This document shows, piece by piece, positions 22,729-63,326 of a stretch of 64,000 nt of DNA. The position numbers were made by a program, and so were the translations under genes. Origin of the DNA: Daphnia pulex (lineage: Eukaryota > Arthropoda > Branchiopoda > Diplostraca > Daphniidae); contig NC_060026.1 of NCBI RefSeq assembly GCF_021134715.1, positions 2,914,001 through 2,978,000 of the forward strand, given 5' to 3'. Below the pieces are notes generated by a model, which was not told the DNA's origin, did not search any database, and worked only from the letters and a program-made list of their open reading frames with translations. Every line of letters begins with the position of its first letter. Positions within the stretch are counted from its first letter, which is position 1.

Positions 22729-23969
22729 ATGGTTGGCAGGTGTGCTGTTCCTGGTTGTAAAACAACATATTACAAAGGAAATCAAAAAGAAAATGATGTT
22801 ACTTTGTTTGCAGTTCCTAAAACTTCATTATCAAAATGGCAAGAACTAATTCCATGTAGCAATTTGACGAGCACCTCACGTATTTGCTCCCGTCATTTTG
22901 ACGAAAGTGACTTTAAATCAGGGATTGAAATTTTTAACGTGTTCCATCCTTTCCAACGTAGGCATCTTAATGCTGGAGCAATTCCCAAACATTTTCTCAT
23001 AAATGGTATGTATTTCCTTTCCTGTAAAATCTTTAATGTCACACAGAAACTAAACCATTTTCATTTTAGATACAATCTAGCCGACAAGCAATGCAAAATG
23101 TTGATGGTTTTAAATGGAGAAATAACCTTAATGGTATTTTTACATATGTTTATTTTGTTTAACATCAAATAACGCTATTCTTAAATATGTATTGCAGTGG
23201 AAGCAAATGCTAGCAATGCATCAGTAAGGAAACGACCAAAAGTAGACAAACCACCTACTACGTCAAAGAGAAAAAAAGTTGACAGTACAGGTATTGATAA
23301 TAGTTCTCTTTACATTTTATTTTGAAGAGCAATTGCTTTAATTTTAATCTTATAGCACCCTCCATGGAAGTTACCTCTACTATTCAAGAAACAATCGACA
23401 TTCACCAGGCTGCTGAAGAAGGAATTGTTGATCCACTTCCTGATTCAATCAAAGAAAATCTTGCTGTTGTCATTGAAGATACGACAGTTGCATCGCCTTC
23501 TATGGAAGCTACCTCTACTATTCAAGAATCAATGGACATTCCCCAGGCTGCTGAAGAAGCTATTTTTGATCCACTTCCTGATGTAATGAACAAAAATGTT
23601 GCTGTTGTCATTGAAGATTCGACAGTTACATCACCTTCTATGGAAGCAAGCTCTACTAATTTCAAGTCTAATTTTGTGACATTTCAGTCACTAGTAACTT
23701 TATCAATGATACCAAAGAATTGGATATGGTCTTTTGATCAAATCAAACAAATGATTTATTGCATTTCGATGGATCAACTACCAAATGGAAATTATAATGT
23801 GAAAAGTGTACATTTTCAAAACAAACAAGAAGTAATGTATTATGTCAACAGAAAGAACATTCCATCAAGCACTACTGCTTTGTCAAACCATTTCACAACA
23901 GTTGAAAATATAACGCAATTGATAAAGGATTTCAACGATCGAAAAATTTGTTCATGCATTCCTCATTAA
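22729..23969 (+). CDS. THAP-domain protein encoded by the transposon, truncated P/THAP9 transposase-like
   Basis: Exons 22729-23005, 23198-23290 and 23356-23969 give 327 residues in a consistent phase. The N-terminus is a C2CH THAP zinc finger: C5, C10, C53, H56, with P30, W37, F57 and a terminal AIPKHF matching the family AVPxxF box. It should bind DNA, presumably the element's own ends. A basic stretch (about residues 105-123) may be a nuclear signal. Residues of exon 3 contain two near-identical copies of a 45-residue unit (SMEVTSTIQE / SMEATSTIQE) and the start of a third. The last 100 residues, with a conserved-looking Pro-Lys-Asn-Trp segment, YYV and IPSS, resemble the central region of P-element-like transposases. 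The protein then stops, before the RNase H fold. A DNA-binding repressor role is inferred. Confidence 0.82.
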
Positions 23970-26825: not shown

Positions 26826-29800
26826 CTACCGAACCAACGATAAGAGGGATCCTCTTCTGTCTCGCAGTTTTGGCCATAAAAATTTGTAAGCGGCAAAAGC
26901 CATACCAGAGAAGAGCAGCGTCAAGAAGATAGTCACTGTTGGGTGAGATAGCAGTAATTAGTTAGGTTAATTAATAATAAGCAAAAATGGTTGTAGCACT
27001 CACAAAATACTGTTCCAGTGACGTTCGTATTCGGGCAAACCGTTGGGTTGTCAGTGTTTGAGATAAATTTCACTCTCCCTTCGTTTCCGTAAGTCAGTGG
27101 TGTTAATTTTTTTATGTACTCTCGGAGAAAAATTTCATCGCGAACGCCTGCCGAAATCAATTGAAAGTTTAGTTTATGATTACAAAAGATTACGAATGAT
27201 GTCGACTGACCAGTGCTGTTTTTCAAAGCAAAATCTTCCATGGACGAAAATCTGCTGCCACCGTTGGCGATAAACGAGGGCATACCAATTCTGTAAACTT
27301 GGTTGTTTACAATTGGAGCCATCCCTCCTTGCGGGTTGTTCGTATCGCGGATGTAGATACTGGCCACACGCGAACCGCTGGGTTTTGATAGATCGTACTC
27401 GACTCGCATGCCGGACACGTGAAGAAACTCGCCGCGGTTGGGTGTAGTCGTGTCGTTATAGTAACTGACCGATTCTTCAAACAGTGTGATGATTTGCTGA
27501 CCATACATCAATGCTCTCACAACAACATTGGCGTAGGGGAACATAGTCAAAATGTCTCCGAATGTGATGGGACCTACAATAAATTATTTTAGTTTTTTAT
27601 TGAAATGACTAATCGTTTTTGGGTTTAATACCTGCACCGATGTCAAGATCGGTATCTGATAGCGCTCCTCCATGCCAGACAGTTGCGGCCACTGTTTCGG
27701 ACCATCCATTGCCAGCAGTCGTGTTCTTTTCCAAAAAAGCGCGAGCCGCATCGGCCATCAAAGCTCCACCGGTGCACTCGGTGTACCAGCAAATTTTCCG
27801 ATCGCTAATAATTGGGATTTTAGTATAACCGATGATCTCATTCGCCTGGGTCAATACTTCTCGTTCCCACTGATCAACCTTGTACTGCAGATCAGGATCT
27901 ACAGAAATTTTCAAATAGTCAATTCTGATCTACAGTAAAATAAATAAAACATGGTGGTAACGAACTTTTTGTCACGCTTGAATCCAAAAGAAATGGATTA
28001 GTTGCCACATAGCTGTTGATTCTACCCTCGTCGTTGATATTCATTTCGATTTTACCCAAATATTTGCCATAACGTGATGTCTGAACGAATAGTCTTTTCG
28101 AGCCTTGGCTGTAGCTCTCAATTGGGTACCGCCCTGCAATATTCTCATTAAGAGGCCCAACAGCAGCGTCTGCAAGACCACAAGAGTTTAATTTCGAATG
28201 ACAATGGACAGATTTTAAGAGATGCTTATACCGTTATATAGGAAAGTATTGCTGCCACCATTAACGAACAAATCGACGCTATAGGCTCTGTCCATCCAAA
28301 GTTTGGCATTTTCAAATCCGGCGCTACCCAGCGCAATGACGAAATAAACCTTTTGATTATACAGCGATGTGATCTCAGCTTCAATAGCGGCAACTGGATC
28401 TGTAAATTTGATTTTTCCCGTGTCCGCCATATACTAAAAAAATAAAATAAACAATGACTTCAATGTTTTAGTGACATATTCGTGATGAAATTGACTCACG
28501 TCTGCATCCTGCCCAATGTAGCCGATAATTCCAATTTTCCTGACACCATCTATGTTGATTACCATGGATTTCTTGTACAAATCACGCATCGAGGGTTCAC
28601 CGGAAATGTCCATGTTGGCGCAGAGCACCGTGACACCGGCGTCCTTCAACGCCTGGAGATATTTCACGGTTTCAGGTACGCCATCTTCGAAGTCGCGATA
28701 GCCCAGTGCCTTTCAGTAAAAATGCACGACATGTAACGACGGCCAATTAAATCACTGAGACCATAATCTTTGTTCGTTAACTAAATAAACACACGAATCT
28801 GTCGGTTAGGCTATGACAAAATAACTGATACATCGCCATAGCTACGTCAAAGATAACAGTAAGGTATTTGAGTAAGTGCGAAAGATAAGACATTGTGTAT
28901 AGATTGTTACCACCGCATTATAGTTGAGCGTTTTTATGGACTCGACTGCCGGGCCTGCTCCGAGGATTGGGTACCAGATGTAACCACCCAACATTCCACC
29001 GGCGTTCAAGTGCAAGAAAACTTTGCCGTTCGATTCGCTCTCCGTCTTCAGCTCTGTGACTTTTGTCAGGTGTCGAGGAACTCCGCCGTAGCATTGCCGG
29101 GACGCTTTTGGACTTTCGAAGTCTGTGCATGAATAATAAAAGTATTTTAGAATGTGGGCTGTCGCTCAATTGATTATCTGTTCATTAATTGTATAACAAA
29201 GTAACACATCACCGAATCCAAACAATATAAGCAGCTGTAGATGAGAAGCCACGACACAGCACAAAGAGCACACAGATTTCATACCTGCACAGCTGTTGAC
29301 TCACTTGGCTTTGAGGTGGTAGTGCTTAAGACAGTGCTAGATGTTAAAGTAGAAGTTTCGTTTCCGCCGGGGGAAAGAGTAGGGACTGTAGTGAAATTGA
29401 CCTGATCAGCATTTGATGGAATAGTTGAGTTGGCAAAGTACGAGGTGGTAGAGTTGATTTGGGGAAGACTATTATTGTGTGAATTAGTTGTTAGTGGAGA
29501 TTGACGGAGTTCCCGAACATTCGAGCGTGTCGCTTTCGTTAGTCTTGATGATGTAACAGGTTCTGTTAAAGGAAGACATTGAAAGCAAACGCCAGACAAA
29601 GACAGTGAGCATAAATATCAGACATAGGATGACTGGATGATAACAACGCACAGAACTTTGAACAAGGATTAAGCTACACAGACAGACGCCTAAACCTAGA
29701 CAGGTCAATTCAACGAAGTATTAGCATACTTCCAGTAAGTCATAAAAGTACCTGAAATTGATCTTGCATTTCTTTTTTGTTTCGCTTCAAATGCTTGTTC

Positions 29801-30859: not shown

Positions 30860-32871
<2,012 letters not shown>

Positions 32872-35270: not shown

Positions 35271-38200
35271 ATGGAAAAAAGAGTCGCAACCTCGGCTGAA
35301 GCTGCGAATGAAGCACCAACTGCTAGAAAGAAACCACGTCAAATTGCGGGCAACAGTTCCGCAAATGATGCAACACTCCTAGCTGTATCCGAAAACCCAT
35401 CAGGAACTGGCATAAGAGGCTCAATGCACGGTGATATCTTTCAACTCAAGTTGCTGATGTTATTTTTAGTTAGAGGGATCACCTCGAAGTACAAATTCCA
35501 ATTGAGCACAGAAATGCCCGGACAGGGTGGCAAATTCGACGATCTCGTTTTCCATTATCAAGACGCTCCTCAAGGTGAATATCGCTATCGATACGTCCAA
35601 GCCAAACACAAACAGGGAGAAGACAATAAGATCACAGCCAGTGATCTACTTAACGAAACCAACGGCGATTATAGTTTGCAAAAATATTTCCGTTCCTACC
35701 GCAACGAAATTGCCAATCCAGGACAGAACGTCCAGGATTGCATTATTTGCACAAACATTGGTTTCGACGATAATGTGCTTGGATCGAAGGATTTCAACTT
35801 AACACTGATCAACTCAGACGATACATTGTTGGGAATTAAACAATACCCAAATTTTGACAAAGTACCAGCTCGATATCAGCTTAACATAACGCGTTTGGAC
35901 GAGTCCAAAATATTTGAATTACTCCATGAAAGTTCAGAGATCCATCAACTGGCAAAGAAGCTACTCGAGTACGCCAATCCTAAAAATAAGAAAAAAATAA
36001 CAAATAACGTAGCAATTTTCAAAATGTATCAGGTCGCTTTGGTAGAAGAAAAAGTAATTGATAGGGAAACGTGGAAATTTCACCAAGATTTCATTACAAA
36101 TAGTGATCTTTTGCCAAAAACAGCAACCAAATTTCGCGACGTCATTTTTAAATTTTGGAATAAAGACAAAAAAGGTGATAGGCCTGCTCATGAATTTAAC
36201 GATTATTTACAAGGCTTGCAATTTAATTGCAGCAAAGATTTCGGCATCAGCAAAGAAAAATCGGATAAAACATTTGACGATGTCGTAATTGACGAGCAAA
36301 TAGAATATTTTCTGAACAAGCTGGTGTTTGCTGTTGACATGCCAAACGAAGTCCGCCTGGGCAATATTCTCACAGAAGAAGTGGGCCAGCATTTTAATTT
36401 GCGCGGGTTTGACTTCCAATCAAGTTTCATGTTGGAGAAAATGTTGGACTGGTTGAAAAAGAGACAAGGCACTGTTATGGTAACGCTTGATGGTAACAAC
36501 TTGTTTGAACAAACTCGACAGAAAATGGTGGCACTTCGGGCTACAGCGTTTTCCATCGACTTCCGCTCGAAATATTTACCGTCCGATTTCCTAAATTCCT
36601 TCCAATACCAAGAGGAAACGATTTCAGAAAAAGCCAATGCGCTGAAAGATTTTTTAAACTCGGCAGACAGCAAAAAAACTTTACGAATCAGTACGCGATC
36701 CTTCAGATGCACGACCGTCAAAATCCTGTCGGCACTTGAAACGCTACCAGGCTTCAAAGATTTAGAAGACGGATATTTGCTGATGGAATCCCAACATCTT
36801 GCTGAGAAACACATGAAAGATTGGGTGAAGGGAGCGATGAAAGAAGAAAATTCCCACCGTGTCCTTATCGTAATCGGAGAAACTCCCCTTAAAGTCGAAA
36901 GATACGAAGAAGATTTTATGCCTGTTGACCGACCTCGCAAGAAGATGATTGTCATCTGCAGCGAAGAAAGCGTAACAGACGGGACCAACGAGTTTCAGAG
37001 GGACGAATTTGACTGCAAAATGCTGAGCGATGAAACGATAAACAAAATTATTTCGACACAAGTCGCATTCCAAGGGAATGAGAAAACCTTGGAGGATTTG
37101 GTTGGCGGGAGAAACGGACTGAGCGAGATGTTGGACTCGTCTTCAGTCGAGGAAATCTTATTCCATCGAAGCAAAGTGAATATTCCTTCGTTCAAGCCAC
37201 ATGAATTTGAAAAATCCCTCTGGATCGAAAGATTTCTACTGCCACCTCCTATTAAATTGGATGAAGATTTTCTACATGAGCTTACCAAGGAACTTGGCTA
37301 CACAAGGGATAAGCTTGATAAGAGCTGCAAATTTAATCCTCGGACAAATCGCATCAAGTGGTTGATCGATGGCACAGTCGAAAAGTCGAACATATGGCAA
37401 CAGGTGGAGAAATTATTATTAAAGAAGAAGGAATCTTTAGACACAATACCTGATTCAGAGACACCAATGATCTGCGGATCAATTCCAGAGATCAAATTGG
37501 CAACAGGAAGCGAATTGAAATCATGTTTCATAATAACTGGAGTGGCGGGATCGGGAAAATCGACGGCTTTGTCACGCCACTACGAACACGTAAAAACGGC
37601 AAATTCAAACGTGTGGGTCATCACCATTAATTTGATCAAACATTCGAAATATTTGTCCAAACTAGCAATCAACACCGCCAGCGATGCTGTCGACTTCCTT
37701 GTCAATTTCCCCGGTGTTACTGGTGACGGAGCGTTCGCACGATCGCTGCTAAAAAATCGATTAATCAACACCGGTGGAGTTGTACTCATGTTGGACGGTT
37801 TCGACGAGATCAACGACCAGTGCAAAAATACCATCATTCTTCTAATAAAAGCCATCAGTAACGGGAAAACCAAATTGGACCGATTGTTGATTACTACTAG
37901 ACCACATTTGGCGAAGGACCTTCAAGACCAACTATGCCAGTTTGCCTTTAGCCTGGAAAATTTAGGAAAAGGGCATCAAGTCGAATACTTGATGAAATAC
38001 TGGCAAAATAAGATAACCCTCAGTAAAGAAGAGATTGCCAGAAAGTTTGCCAATGATTTAATCGACCGGGTGACAGAGGCTCTGAAAGACAAAGAGAGAA
38101 CTTTTATCGGGATCCCATTGCAATGTCGAATTTTGGCAGAATGTTTCCAGCCACAAATTGAAAGCCTCACGTCTTATTCGGCTCCAGAAATCGGTTCCAA

Positions 38201-41200
38201 TTACAACGTAGCCCAACTTTACCACATGTTGTTCCAGAAGAAGCGCGATATCTTCCAAAACAAGAAAGCTACCGGCTCAACGGATTTCGATTTGATTGTC
38301 AAATGGGCATTGGACGAATTTCTCCAAACGATTGACTCGTACCATTTCAAGTTGGCGATCGACACCATTTTCGAGGAGAAGTACGCCAACCTTTTGTGGC
38401 CGCCACAGCAACTGTCTGACCGCCAAAGTGATGAAGACAGGAAAGAAGAGAAAATGAGACGATACGCCCTCCAGTTCGGGTTAACGTCAGTTGATACGCA
38501 AAACACTCGAAAGCTGCAGTTTCTTCACCGAACATTCGCCGAGTATTTGGTGGCCGAGTTTCTTTATAAAGGAATTCTGTCAGACGACAACAAACACAAG
38601 GATCAAATTCGAGATTCTGACGGACCTCTTCTGGATTTCGTGATTCGTGACATCTTTGTTGAGAATTACGAAGGTGTCCGAATATTTCTGGATTCCATGT
38701 TAAAGGACATGGCCATTACCAATCAAACATGGCGCGACACGATACCCAAAAGTATCAACGAATCGCAGCCCAACCAACTGCAAAGATTCGCTCATCATTT
38801 CTCGTTCAGTATGTCCGATTTCTTGTCAAGTGGCAGTGGTGCCGAAGCATTTCTCAAAACCATCCAAGAAGGAAATGTGGGCATATTTGATTTCATGCTC
38901 GATTGCCTTGGAGCAATCTACGACAGACATTCCGTGCAAGAGATGGTCACCAAAGCCATAGACATTGGGAGGTCCCACAAATTTTTCGGCCGCAGTGTCG
39001 AGATTCATCAACGCATCGTCAACTTTTTCAGCGACGCCGAGCTAAAAACCGTGAACGTATTGCTGAATTTAATGGTGGAACATTTCCCTTTTGCGAGGGC
39101 ACAGGGTTATTCCAATTTCCCGCCGAAAGCCCGGAAAACCTATTTAGCTTTCTTACTCGACTTTATGGAAAAGCACCAAAAGAATTTGGCCAATTTACTC
39201 AATCTAGAATTTCTCTCGTTTTACCTTCTCGAACCCAAGGGACATTTCGTCTTTGACCCATACTACGACGAAGAATTGCGCCGATTCCTGAAACTGGTGA
39301 TAACGAATAGATACACCACCCCATCGTCTGTTAATTATTTCGAGGAAAACTTGGATTATGGTGGCAAGGCGATGGGCGGTCGACATGAGAACTGGGTGAA
39401 CGGGAGCATTGAAAAGATCTTGACCATTTTGAAAGATCTCCAACAAGACAAAATGCTGGCAAAAATGTCGAGAGCCGTGCTGACGTCAAATCCTAACCTT
39501 TACGAACGGATTTACAGGCCGTGCATTTTTGAAAAGGACCGAATGTCAGAATTGCGTGAATCTGCGTTGGGAGGTGACAAACACGCCATTTCAGAAGTGA
39601 GATGGCAGTTTCTTGCGGCTGCCGTGGTTGGAAACGAAGAAGTTTGCGAAAATATGCTGCGAACTTTATTTTTGATTGGCAACGACTGGAAACAGCACAA
39701 AGGATTAATTGAGCACGCCCTGAGAATTGCGGAAACGCAATCGGCCGACATGTGGACTCTGATCGTTCGAGTTGTACGGCGACACTTTGACCGAGAGGGG
39801 AACAGCGGACAAGAAGCACTACGCGATGTTTTGACGTGGCAGTTTGATGTAATAAATGGTATGTTGATAGAGTCGTTCGACCCCGTCATCTTACAAAAAG
39901 TTGTCCAAATGAAAGTCACGCAAGAGGAAGACGGGGCGGATTGGTTTCGTGAGATTCTCCTCGGCACAGACTCGCCTACGCGAATGGCGAAGCATTACGA
40001 AGAGGGTTTCAGTTTGCTCTTGAAACACGTTTTGGGCTACTTCAATCAACAGCAGTTGATCAAATTCACAAGACTCATCACGTCCCAAGATTACAAAATA
40101 GAATTTCAGGGAGTTGGCTGCTCTATATGGGCTGCTGAAATCGCGAGATCAGTAATATTCTCAGCTAAATACAATAAATATGTTGATCACAATTTGAGTG
40201 GGAATTTCTGCAGTTTCTTGCAATTGGTAGCCAGTCGATTGGATCAAGAAAGCGTCATAAATCTCCTAAAACACCAAGAGGATAACGTCATTGTCCTTTA
40301 TCACACCGCACTGACACACGGCCAAGAAAATTTCGTCAACAAAATGTGTAGTCGCTATTTGTTGCCAGAAAATCGTGACACGGTCATCAGCGATTTTAAC
40401 GAAAAGGCACCCTACATCATCCTAGACTTGTTCGATCGACATTCTAGAGAAATGCTACCATACGAAACCAAAATCACGGCTTTGATTCCTTTCTTCGTGG
40501 ATCACGCGACAGATGACCAATTGTTACAATTAGTCGATATCATAACATCTAGCTCCTACTGGGAATATCTGTTCGACCATTTGAGCAACGAAGATGTTCT
40601 TCAAATCCTAACACGAGCATCGAAACTTCCGGTGGGATTTGAAGAAGTCGTACGAAAGCTGCTCTCGATCGACGACATACGAGGGCACGATGCCATCATC
40701 ATTCGAGCTGCACAGCAAAGAGGAGACGATTTCATTCAAACGGTGTGTGCCTTACTTCCAGAAATCACCCAGATAGAAATCGCAAACTTTTTGAAGCGCC
40801 ACGCAACTCAGCGGATCGAAGAAATCTTTTTCTCTGGGGAGCTTGATTGGTTTTGGGAATGCAATTCAGAGATCCGTTGGAATACTTTAAAGTTCTTTCT
40901 AAATCACGGCAACGATAATCAACGATCGGAAATGGTTAACGTTCTCACGGCCTTACGTCACGCCGATGAGAGAGTTTGTAGCATTTGGAACAGATGCATA
41001 GAAGAACTTGCGAATACTAAGGTATTTTTTGTAAAGGATTGTCCTAGAGTTCAAGTTTGCCGAAAATTAGAGACGTTTTTGGAGAAGGTTAACGAGAAAA
41101 TCGGAGGGGATGCTGTAATTAAATTACTACTTCACAAAGAAGGTCAAGAGAATAAAAGCGAAGTCGTTCTCATTCGAATCGCATTGTTATACTTGGGTAC

Positions 41201-42713
41201 TTTATCTAACGATCCCTACGAGTTCACGAGTCGCTTTACCATTAAAGATACTGTGCTGTCTCAAGAGAAACAAGTTGAACTTCGTCAGCTTTTGGAACCC
41301 GCCATCAACCAATTTAAACGAGAAAAATGCGACGTCAACTCACCGTTTTGGACAAGTGCCAGTCTGAAGGACTCCCAAGCTGATCACTGGACCGGCGCGT
41401 TACATTTTTATTTGGATTATTCCACGGGTCCTAATCTATCGGCCGATTTCTTTCACATCATGACCTACAAGCGTCCAAGATGGAATAAAACCAAAACTAG
41501 TATTTGGGAATCTTTTTTCGGTGATCAACCCGAGGAAGTTCGTGAGTGTTTTCATCTACTGCGACACGTTTCGGAGAAACTGGGGGAAGACGTTGTAAAA
41601 AAGCTGGCCCTGGAGAAAGACGGAAATGGAAGATTCCTTCTAGGCAAAGCTCTAATGGAACACGCTCATCAACACAGTGTAAAGAGCGTGTACGCCTTTT
41701 TGTCGACACAAGCTAGGAACGAAGTAATCAAAGAATTGCTCAGCGATCCCTACATTAGCAGCAAATTGGACGTCGAAATCGGTTCACGCTCTTTCTCTGA
41801 AAACACAAAGGGAGAACTGTTAATGTATTTAGAGCTTGTCAAATCTGTACGACAAATCGACGGCAAGAGTCGCAGTATTTGGACAAACTATGTCGGTAAA
41901 ATGGAGCTTATTAACACTGAGAAATTTGAACAACTACTGAAATTGGTTTTAGACAAACTGGGCGAAGACTACCTCAAACAACTCATACTCCACGACGACG
42001 ACGGTGACGGGGAATCGATTATTTCATTGGCAACATCACAAGAACATTTTTCGACAATCGACGCAATTTTTTCGTTTCTATCCCCAGCGTCTCAAACAGA
42101 AGTTCGTCAAAAAGGGTACACTGCCACTGGGTTGATTGAACGTATGGTGTCCAACAAAGGATCGGATTACTTGATTATACGCCACCTTAACATAAATTCC
42201 GCTGATGGAACGGCATCTAACCTTCCAGGCGGTTTCGACGTGTTAGCATCGTATTTTCTGGATAAATTCAATTTGGATCAATTGAAAAGCTTCGTCAAAC
42301 TCATCACGTCCCTCAATAAAGTAAAAAGAGAAACTCGAAGTATTTGGGGTGACTACATCAGAAAAGTATGCTCAATTAGGCCCTTTACTAAACAAGAAGA
42401 AGAAAATCAAAAATTTTCATTAAGTTCAATCGAACACTTCTTTAAAGTCGTTTCTAATAGATTAGGTTCAACAGCGGTGGTTCAACTATTGTACCATTAT
42501 GACAGCAGCTGTGTTGTCATAAACTATTTTGTTTTGAAAGACTGTCCAGAGATAGCCAACATGGCCTTCTGTCAACTGGAACAACACGAGAAAAATGGGA
42601 AAATTCGATTCTGTCCAATCAACGGTCGACCTATAGTAGAGCAGCCTATCGAGCTGTCTCTGCATCAACAACAACGAGGAAAGAAAAAACGAGACAGAAG
42701 AGCTAATAAGTAA
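35271..42713 (+). CDS. giant intronless NACHT (STAND) NTPase with N-terminal restriction-endonuclease-like domain and C-terminal repeats
   Basis: A single 2,480-codon ORF without introns. Residues 1-48: basic, NLS-like (ARKKPR). Residues about 50-230: a restriction-nuclease-like domain (GSMHGDIFQLKLL; E81, D90/D91 in KFDDLVF, Q110-A-K112 in YVQAKHK), matching the E-D-QxK core of Cap4/DUF4297-type PD-(D/E)xK enzymes. About 230-750: helical linker of unknown fold. NACHT: Walker A GVAGSGKST (757-765), Walker B VVLMLDGFDEI (D842, D845, E846), sensor-like LLITTRP (872-878), then the PL motif and winged-helix region ending LQFLHRTFAEYLVAEFL. About 1130-2440: long helical repeats, with SIW at 1618, 1904, 2077, 2202 and 2357, each later followed by a conserved LG-x(2)-V-x(2)-LLxH-like block. 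The end is very basic (GKKKRDRR). The architecture is that of NLR/Avs proteins: sensor repeats, an oligomerising NTPase and an effector nuclease. An innate-immune role is inference; the exact trigger is unknown. Confidence 0.9.
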   Translation: MEKRVATSAEAANEAPTARKKPRQIAGNSSANDATLLAVSENPSGTGIRGSMHGDIFQLKLLMLFLVRGITSKYKFQLSTEMPGQGGKFDDLVFHYQDAPQGEYRYRYVQAKHKQGEDNKITASDLLNETNGDYSLQKYFRSYRNEIANPGQNVQDCIICTNIGFDDNVLGSKDFNLTLINSDDTLLGIKQYPNFDKVPARYQLNITRLDESKIFELLHESSEIHQLAKKLLEYANPKNKKKITNNVAIFKMYQVALVEEKVIDRETWKFHQDFITNSDLLPKTATKFRDVIFKFWNKDKKGDRPAHEFNDYLQGLQFNCSKDFGISKEKSDKTFDDVVIDEQIEYFLNKLVFAVDMPNEVRLGNILTEEVGQHFNLRGFDFQSSFMLEKMLDWLKKRQGTVMVTLDGNNLFEQTRQKMVALRATAFSIDFRSKYLPSDFLNSFQYQEETISEKANALKDFLNSADSKKTLRISTRSFRCTTVKILSALETLPGFKDLEDGYLLMESQHLAEKHMKDWVKGAMKEENSHRVLIVIGETPLKVERYEEDFMPVDRPRKKMIVICSEESVTDGTNEFQRDEFDCKMLSDETINKIISTQVAFQGNEKTLEDLVGGRNGLSEMLDSSSVEEILFHRSKVNIPSFKPHEFEKSLWIERFLLPPPIKLDEDFLHELTKELGYTRDKLDKSCKFNPRTNRIKWLIDGTVEKSNIWQQVEKLLLKKKESLDTIPDSETPMICGSIPEIKLATGSELKSCFIITGVAGSGKSTALSRHYEHVKTANSNVWVITINLIKHSKYLSKLAINTASDAVDFLVNFPGVTGDGAFARSLLKNRLINTGGVVLMLDGFDEINDQCKNTIILLIKAISNGKTKLDRLLITTRPHLAKDLQDQLCQFAFSLENLGKGHQVEYLMKYWQNKITLSKEEIARKFANDLIDRVTEALKDKERTFIGIPLQCRILAECFQPQIESLTSYSAPEIGSNYNVAQLYHMLFQKKRDIFQNKKATGSTDFDLIVKWALDEFLQTIDSYHFKLAIDTIFEEKYANLLWPPQQLSDRQSDEDRKEEKMRRYALQFGLTSVDTQNTRKLQFLHRTFAEYLVAEFLYKGILSDDNKHKDQIRDSDGPLLDFVIRDIFVENYEGVRIFLDSMLKDMAITNQTWRDTIPKSINESQPNQLQRFAHHFSFSMSDFLSSGSGAEAFLKTIQEGNVGIFDFMLDCLGAIYDRHSVQEMVTKAIDIGRSHKFFGRSVEIHQRIVNFFSDAELKTVNVLLNLMVEHFPFARAQGYSNFPPKARKTYLAFLLDFMEKHQKNLANLLNLEFLSFYLLEPKGHFVFDPYYDEELRRFLKLVITNRYTTPSSVNYFEENLDYGGKAMGGRHENWVNGSIEKILTILKDLQQDKMLAKMSRAVLTSNPNLYERIYRPCIFEKDRMSELRESALGGDKHAISEVRWQFLAAAVVGNEEVCENMLRTLFLIGNDWKQHKGLIEHALRIAETQSADMWTLIVRVVRRHFDREGNSGQEALRDVLTWQFDVINGMLIESFDPVILQKVVQMKVTQEEDGADWFREILLGTDSPTRMAKHYEEGFSLLLKHVLGYFNQQQLIKFTRLITSQDYKIEFQGVGCSIWAAEIARSVIFSAKYNKYVDHNLSGNFCSFLQLVASRLDQESVINLLKHQEDNVIVLYHTALTHGQENFVNKMCSRYLLPENRDTVISDFNEKAPYIILDLFDRHSREMLPYETKITALIPFFVDHATDDQLLQLVDIITSSSYWEYLFDHLSNEDVLQILTRASKLPVGFEEVVRKLLSIDDIRGHDAIIIRAAQQRGDDFIQTVCALLPEITQIEIANFLKRHATQRIEEIFFSGELDWFWECNSEIRWNTLKFFLNHGNDNQRSEMVNVLTALRHADERVCSIWNRCIEELANTKVFFVKDCPRVQVCRKLETFLEKVNEKIGGDAVIKLLLHKEGQENKSEVVLIRIALLYLGTLSNDPYEFTSRFTIKDTVLSQEKQVELRQLLEPAINQFKREKCDVNSPFWTSASLKDSQADHWTGALHFYLDYSTGPNLSADFFHIMTYKRPRWNKTKTSIWESFFGDQPEEVRECFHLLRHVSEKLGEDVVKKLALEKDGNGRFLLGKALMEHAHQHSVKSVYAFLSTQARNEVIKELLSDPYISSKLDVEIGSRSFSENTKGELLMYLELVKSVRQIDGKSRSIWTNYVGKMELINTEKFEQLLKLVLDKLGEDYLKQLILHDDDGDGESIISLATSQEHFSTIDAIFSFLSPASQTEVRQKGYTATGLIERMVSNKGSDYLIIRHLNINSADGTASNLPGGFDVLASYFLDKFNLDQLKSFVKLITSLNKVKRETRSIWGDYIRKVCSIRPFTKQEEENQKFSLSSIEHFFKVVSNRLGSTAVVQLLYHYDSSCVVINYFVLKDCPEIANMAFCQLEQHEKNGKIRFCPINGRPIVEQPIELSLHQQQRGKKKRDRRANK

Positions 42714-43802: not shown

Positions 43803-44858
43803 ATGGTTTCAATGGCAACATCAGTACTCATCAAGATGAAATTGAATCGCATTGTCAAGATGTTGGGTTGGGGAAAGATCAAGAACGACCCCACCAAACC
43901 TGTTCAGACTGGAAAAACATCGGATGAAATAAATCCCAGCCCCTCCCATCAGGTGTCGACACCAGAACCCGAACCGATGGAAGACAAGACAATTGCTCGG
44001 GAGGATTCAGCGAAGGAAGGATCACGCGAGAAACCGAGAAAACAGTTTCGATTTTCCATGAAGTCTGCTAAACTACCAGTAGTGCATGGCGAATCTTCGT
44101 GCGTACAGCTTCTCAAATTTCGCACACTTACTGAGATCGAGATCGGAGATGAGATGGAGACCCCGGAAATGGAAGACCTTCCATCAGAATTTAAAGACGA
44201 GAAAAAATCGAATCGGTGGAGCAAACGAAAAAGCTACAACCTTAACACACCTGCTGTCAAAACACCTGCTGAGAAATCGTCCAAAGTTGTACTTTCCAAA
44301 TTTTGCCGTCTCAGCGAAAATGCAATGGAGAATACAGCCGTCCAAATTCACAAGGAAGAAGAAGTAAAGTCTACGACCGTCACGGAATTTCTTACTCAAA
44401 CCGGATTTTTGTTGGAGAAACCTCAGAAAAAGCCTGGTAAACTCCAACCGAAAAAAGAAAGCTATTTCTCTATCAAGTCTCTTCCGTGCAACCAAAATCT
44501 AATCCACCAACGAAACCACCATCGAAACGAACGACGTCACCTAAAATACGGAAAAGGGTTCCAAAAGAAGTGTCAGTGCATTTTCTGTGATTCCGCCTCA
44601 CCGCTGTCACCCAAATGTCCCGAGTGCAGATCCGTTCCAGAATCTTCCAAGACCGAAAAGCCGACGCAGATACCCTTTGTGTGCAAGTGTAAATGGTGTC
44701 AAACGAAAGCATCCGTATGCAGCATGTGCGGGAGACTGATTAAGAAAACGGAAACAAAAGACCCGACGAAGATGCAAGATAAAGTGACAAAACCATTGGT
44801 GCAGCCAGACGTTGTCGAAGGTCGACTGCAAGAGGGGACAGAAGAACAGCGCAATTAA
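43803..44858 (+). CDS. intronless hypothetical protein with two Cys-rich modules
   Basis: 351 residues, not recognised. The N-terminal two thirds are charged and probably disordered (many Lys, Glu, Ser). Near the C-terminus are two similar Cys modules: C257, C259, C262, C272, C275 and C294, C296, C299, C305, C308. Both follow C-x-C-x2-C-x(5-9)-C-x2-C, suggesting paired zinc-binding knuckles. It lacks introns like the NACHT gene just upstream and has the same orientation. AATAAA lies at 45112-45117, about 255 nt past the stop. The first ATG is followed by two others (residues 4 and 12) in frame. Expression and function are unknown. Confidence 0.65.
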   Translation: MVSMATSVLIKMKLNRIVKMLGWGKIKNDPTKPVQTGKTSDEINPSPSHQVSTPEPEPMEDKTIAREDSAKEGSREKPRKQFRFSMKSAKLPVVHGESSCVQLLKFRTLTEIEIGDEMETPEMEDLPSEFKDEKKSNRWSKRKSYNLNTPAVKTPAEKSSKVVLSKFCRLSENAMENTAVQIHKEEEVKSTTVTEFLTQTGFLLEKPQKKPGKLQPKKESYFSIKSLPCNQNLIHQRNHHRNERRHLKYGKGFQKKCQCIFCDSASPLSPKCPECRSVPESSKTEKPTQIPFVCKCKWCQTKASVCSMCGRLIKKTETKDPTKMQDKVTKPLVQPDVVEGRLQEGTEEQRN

Positions 44859-60899: not shown

Positions 60900-63326
60900 T
60901 TACTCCATTGTAATTTCAGCCCACATGTACAAATTAGTTCCAGGATTTCGAACCAACACAAGAGACAAAGGTATTTGTGAAATGGCACGAATGACTATAT
61001 ATCCACGACCAATTCCTTTTCCTTCGCTAAGACCGAAATCTCCTTGAGTGACAAATCCAATGATCGGCCTGGCGAATGAAGTTTTTAAATTGCAGGAAGA
61101 AGGCAGCCATAACGAGCGAGTCTTTTCTTTGTGAACAGCAATTGCAGTGGCGCTGGAGAAGTCCCCAATGGTTCCATCTTTATCCCGGAATTCTTTCCTC
61201 TTTTTCGCAAGACTCTTCAGAAGGGAACTGTGCTGTTGGCGTAACATTTTCCGTTCTTTGGCGCAGGGATCTTGGTGAATAGGCTCGTTAATTACTGAAT
61301 TAACTTTATCATCGGCTCCCGGTAAACAGATCATTGAAAATTCCTGAGGTGACCCGTGTTTAACTCGAACTGTCACGGGCACTAAATAAGGTTGAGATAA
61401 TAAGATTTCGGGTAGCACAATCCTATTCTTTTGACACAATCCACTTAGGAGCTTCTTGTCACGTAATACAGTGAAACCTGACTCAGACTGACCGATCCAG
61501 TCGATTGTAAGGCGATCCCAATCGACGCAGAACGGAAAAGGTGTGGCTAATTTGATGAAGTTGGTTCTTGTTTTAGGTGGTCTACGAAAGTATTCTTCCA
61601 TCAAATTCATTTTTCTGTCAACGGCAGTGGCTTTTCCTGCTTCACTGTCGATTTCTAAGCAGAGATCCCGACAAATTCCGTATTCAAAATTCATGCTTCC
61701 CGCATCTTTCAAACCTCCAGCGTGCCCTCCACTATAGATCAGTGCAAGCCAGAAAGCTGTAGCCCATCCAGCCGGCAAAATGACGTCACAGCCAGGAACA
61801 AAATCTTGAAAGGAAAAAAAAAGGTAAAAAAAAATTACATAATAAAAGAAATGTATTTACTTACCGCTGCTCTCGTGAGATGCATTCACAATGAGGATTG
61901 GAATGGGGATTTCTTCTGGCTGGACGGGTAACTCGGTGCCAGGAACAAGTAATTCACTACGACGGTTATTGATGACGTGATCGGGTAAACTTGTTCGCAT
62001 ATTGGTAATTTGATCTCGAACGCTGGCATCCCACAATTTACTTTGGCTCAATCCTACAAGTTCACAGTTACCTACCGTGGAACTGGACGCTTTGATTCGG
62101 GTTTGTGCGAGTATCATTCGAGGATCTCTGACTTCAACACTGGTGACAAACCCAGGTGATTGTGATAAACTTGACGCGCTCCTAGTTTCTTTGTCGAATA
62201 ACGACGATACAACTGAATGTGCAAAGGGCCCTCTTAATCTGAACCGATTTAGCTTTCCTTTGTTTAAGGTAATCTTGACTCCAGGAGGCTTGCATAATAA
62301 GTCGGAATCGGATTCGAAAATAGAATTCAGCTCACACAGAAACTGTTGGTAGAAAGCTGGATGGCTCCATATCCACAAGGTTCGCATATCCGGATTCCCT
62401 GTATTGCACCACAAAAACGTAACCAAGCCGATGGGGCCGCTCGAAAACTGATTTCGCTTGAAAATGATCACTCTTCCTTCACGAGTGCCATTAAGGAAAG
62501 TAGACGCACCAAACGTTGGGCCAGTTTTAGGATCACAGAGAGAGATAAGGCCTCGAACGATCTCATCCTGTGGACCTTGAATTTCAACGCAACACAAGTA
62601 CGATATGTCCTTTGAACAAAAAGAGGCAATTAATAATTACGTAAATCATTAATATTTTGAATTGATACCATTAGCAGGCAATGTTGAGCTACTGAACGGT
62701 AGCAGAATCTGTGACTGCGAGCGCAAGATCTTTCAGGAAGACGATGTCCCCACTTGATTACCATGTGAAACCTAAATGGTAAAAAGTAGTAACATGTCCT
62801 TAACATAACCTACAAATGGAAACAAACCTTTTGGCATGCCACAGGTGTGTTTCTAGCCAAGAGACTTTACTAGATCGCTTTTTATACTCTTCCAGCAATC
62901 TGCTTGGTCTGCGTCTATATTTCCTTCTAGGCCTCTTAGGCTGGGTTGCTGGACCACTCTTTGCCATCTAAATCCACATAAATATAGAGTTTATTCAGTG
63001 TGGAGCTATACTTTTATAAGCAGACTTACTTGGGCCTTGTGGGCTTCCCTTAAGGTTCTTGGCATTCTGTTTGGGTTATGGCTCATTGCTCTTCTTCGCA
63101 TATGACATGGCAGTTTTTGAAAAAGTAATTTGGTGCATTGTGGATTTTCTTAAGGCAAACAACATGTTAGCAAATGTTGATAGGACAACTCTTTTTTTGG
63201 GGAGGGGGGAAACTCACCTATCATTTTTGTGAGAGCAACAATTTCCTGGGCTCTAACAGAAGAAAATCGAACGACTGATAAATCAGAAGGAACATTTTGC
63301 GTCATTTTGTTTCTTTCGTCAGTCAT
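60900..63326 (-). CDS. Pop1: POP1, RNase P/MRP protein subunit, reading frame broken by one base
   Basis: Exons (minus order): 63326-63218, 63148-63030, 62967-62829, 62771-62669, 62609-61865, 61804-60900; about 706 residues if the frame were continuous. The N-terminal POP1 domain is clear (HMRRRAMSHNPNRMPRTLRE, WLETHLWHAKRFHM, SYLCCVEIQG, TFGASTFLNG), and the C-terminal POPLD region follows (NRRSELLVPGTELP, ILPAGWATAFWLALIYSGGH, GFVTQGDFGLSEG). POP1 is the large scaffold subunit shared by RNase P and RNase MRP. In exon 3 the frame of RRPSRLLEEYK meets the conserved KVSWLETHLWHAK one base out of phase, at the AAAA run near 62880-62884, so the literal sequence stops at a TAG about 25 nt later. 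All other junctions are in phase. An assembly or sequencing slip in the homopolymer is the simplest reading, since the gene is essential. Confidence 0.9.

Follow-up and report, generated by a model that had tools for sequence, protein, structure and literature searches.

A candidate nuclease-armed NLR-like receptor encoded by a multigene family of Daphnia pulex

Domain layout of the gene

We analysed a stretch of 64,000 bases of the Daphnia pulex genome (the window; G000:C10:2914001-2978000), which belongs to a contig of 16,340,441 bases (C10) in an assembly of 133.2 Mb and 13 contigs. The window carries an intact, uninterrupted open reading frame (ORF) of 2,480 codons plus stop in the standard genetic code, the product of which combines a nuclease-like domain, a NACHT NTPase and C-terminal repeats in one chain (Table 1). 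A preliminary description had compared this layout with that of the bacterial antiviral Avs proteins, and our analysis confirmed the order of the domains; the repeats would then serve as sensor. We consider it slightly better than an even bet (probability of about 0.55) that the protein is an NLR-like STAND receptor of arthropods, which is armed with a nuclease of bacterial type. From the more far-reaching proposal of a self-contained, nucleic-acid-cleaving arthropod immune receptor, the gene, the predicted fold and the conservation of the core held up; DNA cutting and ligand sensing are what we infer.

Table 1. Positions (window numbering) and supporting evidence for the features of the gene
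Feature	Position	Strand	Evidence
Whole gene	35271..42713	+	one unbroken ORF, 2,480 codons + stop
Bipartite NLS-like segment (NLS, nuclear localization signal), residues 3-23, KR...RKKPR	35277..35339	+	sequence; family-wide NLS-like enrichment before the nuclease
Cap4-like PD-(D/E)xK (Tox-REase-8-type) nuclease domain, residues 45-300	35403..36170	+	
E81, core acidic residue	35511..35513	+	E in 99/101; aligned to E40, invariant in the Cap4 set
D90-D91, probably the metal-binding aspartates	35538..35543	+	D in 100/101 and 101/101; aligned to D48-D49 in the Cap4 set
Q110-A-K112, QxK motif, probably with the catalytic lysine	35598..35606	+	Q 100/101, K 100/101; K112 aligns with Cap4-set K74
Middle region, residues 336-745	36276..37505	+	predicted model
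NACHT NTPase and helical part, residues 746-1160	37506..38750	+	
Walker A, GVAGSGKST	37539..37565	+	sequence
C-terminal repeat tail, residues 1161-2480	38751..42710	+	diverged repeat blocks in 1611-2472
Basic C-terminal end, KKKRDRR	42681..42710	+	sequence

All elements of the NACHT signature listed in the preliminary description (GVAGSGKST, LMLDGFDEI, LLITTRP and FLHRTFAEYLVAEFL) are present in the translation. The Pfam NACHT model matched residues 753-913 with 32 bits (gathering score 26.7), and in the model predicted for residues 336-1160 (predicted local distance difference test, 81.5) the NACHT module adopts an NLR-type fold similar to those of NOD2 and NLRC4. The middle region is predicted to consist of helices followed by an alpha/beta part (residues 470-580, approximately) without a Walker A motif. 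Its fold matches were indirect (tentatively NSF, p97 and ClpC), and a degenerate second NTPase preceding the NACHT is one possible identity.

C-terminal repeats had been described for about 1,300 residues. Using a repeat profile built from the window protein itself, we recognised repeats in about residues 1611-2472 but not over the whole span. Comparison of the tail with the PDB yielded no matches, and a sub-threshold ankyrin signal was obtained for the tails of two paralogues. When the window protein and four whole paralogues were scanned with Pfam, neither leucine-rich repeat families nor SAVED were detected; for SAVED, the N-terminal part of a fifth paralogue was also negative, and no death-fold family was matched in the window protein and its paralogues. 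The protein shares with animal NLRs (NOD2, NLRC4, NLRP3, shrimp LvNLRC) a NACHT of NLR-type fold, but it differs from them by the lack of leucine-rich repeat and death-fold matches and by a nuclease at its N-terminus.

The nuclease domain and its conserved core

The putative core residues E81, D90, D91, Q110 and K112 were all found at the positions previously assigned to them. Structure prediction gave a Cap4-type PD-(D/E)xK fold with E, FDD and QxK, and a profile match to Cap4 was obtained with a P-value of 7e-7 (the title of PDB entry 7yia names a K74A mutant of Cap4). With Cap4 of the CBASS systems the domain shares the predicted fold and the core residues, but instead of SAVED a NACHT and a repeat tail follow.

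The N-terminal match was present in 101 of the 102 proteins returned by a first homologue search, and each core residue was retained in at least 99 of these 101 (Table 1). Several other positions were similarly well conserved (H113, K138 and Y139 in 101, G54 in 99, Q58 in 87 with E in the remaining 14). A second search gave 144 matches, 120 of which were listed and 97 of these were new; among the matches listed, 94 of the 97 new proteins could be aligned with the domain (E 89, D90 92, D91 91, Q 92, K 94). When the 12 D. pulex genes with a nuclease domain were compared (window gene counted), all of them carried QxK and D91, 11 carried E81 and 10 carried D90, which is replaced by E in the remaining two. 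Because the core residues are conserved across homologues, their occurrence is more than chance. This conservation also bears on the possibility that the nuclease fold has been kept for binding only, as a DNA-binding or dimerising scaffold that does not cut. In favour of such a role, toxicity is reported for CifB types I and X even without their catalytic residues (PMC12445526; here and below, sources given by PMC number are cited for part of their text). However, dead scaffolds usually lose such residues, whereas K112 is kept in 100/101 and D91 in 101/101 homologues, and in 94/94 and 91/94 of the second set, among the matches listed. We consider a binding-only role improbable.

CifB itself carries two PD-(D/E)XK domains and acts with a cifA partner (PMC12445526). 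CifB chains were absent from the nuclease profile search (E<=10) and from the 50 VIA matches listed, and no second nuclease domain was found in the window protein, the middle region of which was neither folded nor searched alone. As a single-sequence query against PDB, PADLOC and NCBIfam, the window protein returned nothing useful for the nuclease, and only alignments and folds were informative. No curated PADLOC defence family was matched at E<=1. The Pfam model of the Cap4 nuclease (PF14130) recognised none of 22 family members at E<=1 and had no match in the D. pulex genome, as in the 14 control genomes, none of which was positive; other Pfam matches among the 22 members were single and weak. 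A full-length profile (A2) retrieved mostly ankyrin-type chains among the 60 matches listed, and a domain-only alignment (A5) was used instead. It consisted of the window domain and 21 of the 30 displayed N-terminal segments (from the 101), three of them shortened; nine segments were excluded by eye, including P0091 with a proline in place of Q110. Another alignment (A6) took 9 of 27 plasmid Cap4 records. The 296 pattern matches in viral contigs included no relative, and a Foldseek search of BFVD gave nothing at E<=0.001, the top match being an Mrr-like Orpheovirus protein (0.042).

Zhang et al. (2012; PMC3482391) defined Tox-REase-8 as a toxin domain with the signature GxxxQ, DD, QxK, which occurs in Wolbachia, Amoebophilus, Daphnia, mosquitoes, ants, beetles and Trichoplax together with ankyrin and TPR repeats. 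The window domain satisfies this signature (G54xxxQ58, D90D91, Q110xK112), and judging by signature, hosts and repeat partners it appears to be a member of Tox-REase-8. In the portion of its text examined, the STAND NTPases named are those of Amoebophilus effectors, NACHT and NB-ARC are not mentioned and the layout of a STAND receptor is not drawn. According to the same paper, one or more introns are present in the majority of insect Tox-REase-8 genes; in the D. pulex genes, by contrast, the coding part is continuous.

For proteins with at least 30 residues ahead of the nuclease, we counted NLS-like motifs in the 60 residues preceding the domain. Such motifs were present in 47 of 92 proteins, whereas 9,200 control windows drawn from these proteins had them in 8.0% of cases and shuffled sequences in 13.2%. 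When bipartite motifs alone were counted, we obtained 28 of 92, 2.0% and 5.0%, respectively. As a count of motifs, this enrichment suggests that the substrate may be nuclear DNA.

The family in D. pulex and its relatives

The D. pulex genome contains at least 25 family matches. Of 14 fetched stretches, eight (L009-L013, L016-L018) each hold a single ORF of 1,912-2,230 amino acids that encodes all three parts, the nuclease, the NACHT and the tail; C10 carries seven of these and C2 one (L009). Together with the window gene there are nine full genes, eight of them on C10 at about 0.92-3.21 Mb, and in all nine the coding part is unbroken by introns. The L018 product (2,168 amino acids) has the same length as that of D. 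pulex LOC124206074 (P0014) and lies at distance 0 from it in the tree. L014, L015 and L019-L021 are truncated, split or without nuclease, and L022 has no ORF of at least 250 amino acids. The split, truncated or stop-bearing copies (L015, L019, L022, G000:C5:4267241-4268067) point to birth and death of family members in D. pulex.

The mean pairwise identity of the nine genes (36 pairs) was 46.2% for the nuclease, 38.7% for the middle region, 44.7% for the NACHT and 29.7% for the tail. For four pairs, the ratio of nonsynonymous to synonymous substitution rates (dN/dS) was 0.18-0.50 in the 14 region values that could be computed, out of 16; in two of these pairs one partner is truncated or split, and in one pair dS exceeds 1.2. 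Every region is under purifying selection, and the ratios reflect constraint with no sign of positive selection. Constraint everywhere, with the tail least alike, is what one would expect if the tail were the sensor. L011 and L014 differ little in the nuclease (dN 0.13) and in the middle region (dN 0.11) but are distant in the NACHT (dN 0.41, dS not computable) and are perhaps a recombination mosaic.

Outside D. pulex, named homologues were found in other Daphnia species, beetles, ants, a bee, Nasonia, a stink bug, a lacewing, flies and a millipede, and among bacteria in Wolbachia, Mesenet and metagenome-assembled genomes titled Rickettsiales and Oscillospiraceae. Partner domains differ by member: OTU or Ulp1 proteases in some, NACHT or NB-ARC, and ankyrin, TPR or neither. 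A tree was built by a quick method from 58 sequences of named organisms, with 11 paralogues of D. pulex included and unnamed metagenome sequences excluded. Here, the Daphnia sequences formed one group (support 98), and several D. pulex copies clustered with genes of other Daphnia species. The 14 bacterial sequences were scattered among those of insects, which requires six changes, at least four of them forced by well-supported branches. The nuclease domain of Callosobruchus chinensis P0100 was nearly identical to that of Wolbachia P0098 (tree distance almost zero), and P0100 is a probable recent Wolbachia insertion or contamination. Wasmannia P0083 was close to another Wolbachia sequence, and some insect sequences may themselves be symbiont insertions or contaminations. 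The tree indicates that the family has moved between arthropods and intracellular bacteria; these possible insertions limit what the tree can say about the number and direction of the transfers.

A scan of genome contigs gave one find (L032), a 4.4-kb contig of an Oscillospiraceae-titled metagenome-assembled genome, the protein of which shares 50% identity over the best segment with a Wolbachia family member; the same protein was retrieved as P0128. The contig is perhaps mis-binned and of host or endosymbiont origin. We considered, but dropped, the idea of a family missing from free-living bacteria, since Tox-REase-8 occurs in many phyla (PMC3482391) and word-based searches cannot prove absence.

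The mixing of bacterial and insect sequences raises the possibility of a domesticated endosymbiont effector with a non-immune job, i.e., a Wolbachia-type Tox-REase-8/STAND effector kept for genome conflict, germ line functions or transposon control, the likeness to Avs stemming from a common bacterial toolkit. The relatives in Wolbachia and Mesenet, their scattered positions and the uninterrupted ORFs of the nine D. pulex genes would fit, as would the repeated transfer from Wolbachia-like endosymbionts proposed by Zhang et al. (PMC3482391). Against it, the Daphnia copies form a single well-supported group with an old radiation of their own and an animal-NLR-like NACHT, and the gain and loss of copies combined with divergence of the tail is typical of receptors. 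We regard this explanation as unlikely.

Related Wolbachia proteins reside in the eukaryotic association modules of phage WO (Bordenstein and Bordenstein, 2016; PMC5062602). This location, together with the broken relatives and with copies that are specific to the lineage and lie on one chromosome in a span of about 2.3 Mb, would suit a selfish or allorecognition killer, the nuclease of which is aimed at conspecifics of the carrier, as in mating incompatibility or a toxin-like drive. Against such a killer, no antidote candidate stands out among the ten window ORFs, to which the search was confined, and the clustering of several copies with genes of other Daphnia species argues in the same direction. 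We give it a low probability.

Known systems, proposed mode of action and neighbouring sequences

Several parts of the protein have been described before. PMC5062602 reports homologues of prophage WO NACHT proteins across arthropods and crustaceans, including Daphnia, and N-terminal homologues of gwv_1093 in mosquitoes, ants, beetles and Nasonia; the word nuclease is never used in that paper. A TPR protein of Wolbachia from Nasonia (P0135) has the nuclease core. A shrimp NLR with leucine-rich repeats (LvNLRC) has also been published. In the literature covered, with few subscription journals and no preprints, we found no report of an animal protein with both a nuclease and a NACHT, nor of a link between these and Cap4 or Avs, although a paper may have been missed. 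Since the parts are known and no such report was found, the combination and the Cap4/Avs link look new.

With bacterial Avs3 and Avs4 the window protein shares the single-chain arrangement of nuclease, STAND NTPase and C-terminal repeats. It differs from them by a predicted NACHT fold nearer to animal NLRs, by the additional middle region of about 400 residues and by the lack of a PADLOC match. In Avs1-Avs4, the nuclease effectors cause death by cleaving the genomes of both phage and host (PMC12931631). Taken together, the Cap4-type fold and motif, the conservation of the core, the NLR-like NACHT, the multigene family, the regional constraint, the NLS enrichment and the Avs precedent argue for a nuclease-armed receptor.

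Animal NLRs are mainly known to act through adaptors, caspases or signalling partners. Beyond domain identity, the following steps are drawn by analogy with Avs. The diverged repeat tail would bind something foreign or abnormal, and the NACHT would exchange nucleotide and oligomerise, as suggested by its intact Walker A and B motifs and by its fold, which resembles those of NOD2 and NLRC4. By analogy with Cap4 and Avs, and given the conserved E-DD-QxK core, the oligomer might pair the N-terminal nucleases, which would then cut DNA. The NLS-like segment would place this DNA in the nucleus, i.e., the host genome (suicide) and/or invader DNA. We propose only tentatively, as somewhat doubtful, that the protein functions in arthropods as an equivalent of Avs, with a fast-diverging tail that senses the invader, a NACHT of NLR type for assembly and a Cap4-family nuclease that cuts nuclear DNA without a death-fold or caspase adaptor, and that this receptor type circulates between arthropods and endosymbionts, the copies possibly serving as decoys or weapons. 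If so, the Avs design would work in animals too, as a NACHT receptor with its own bacterial-type nuclease; arthropods would have a second kind of NLR beside the leucine-rich repeat-bearing shrimp protein, and the nuclease-STAND modules shared with Wolbachia would become testable from the host side.

Directly downstream of the gene there is a basic ORF of 351 codons (43803-44858, +), which had no Pfam match at E<=0.01 and carries cysteine pairs near its end that resemble a zinc ribbon. Elsewhere in the window, pieces of a 5'-nucleotidase C-terminal domain (26933-27550, -) and of a papain-type cysteine protease (31135-31653, -) represent ordinary host genes judging by their families, and an exon-like ORF (60900-61778, -) encodes POPLD and POP1 C-terminal domains. 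A tandem repeat with a 138-base unit in 2.2 copies (23356-23658) is located within the ORF 23322-23969.
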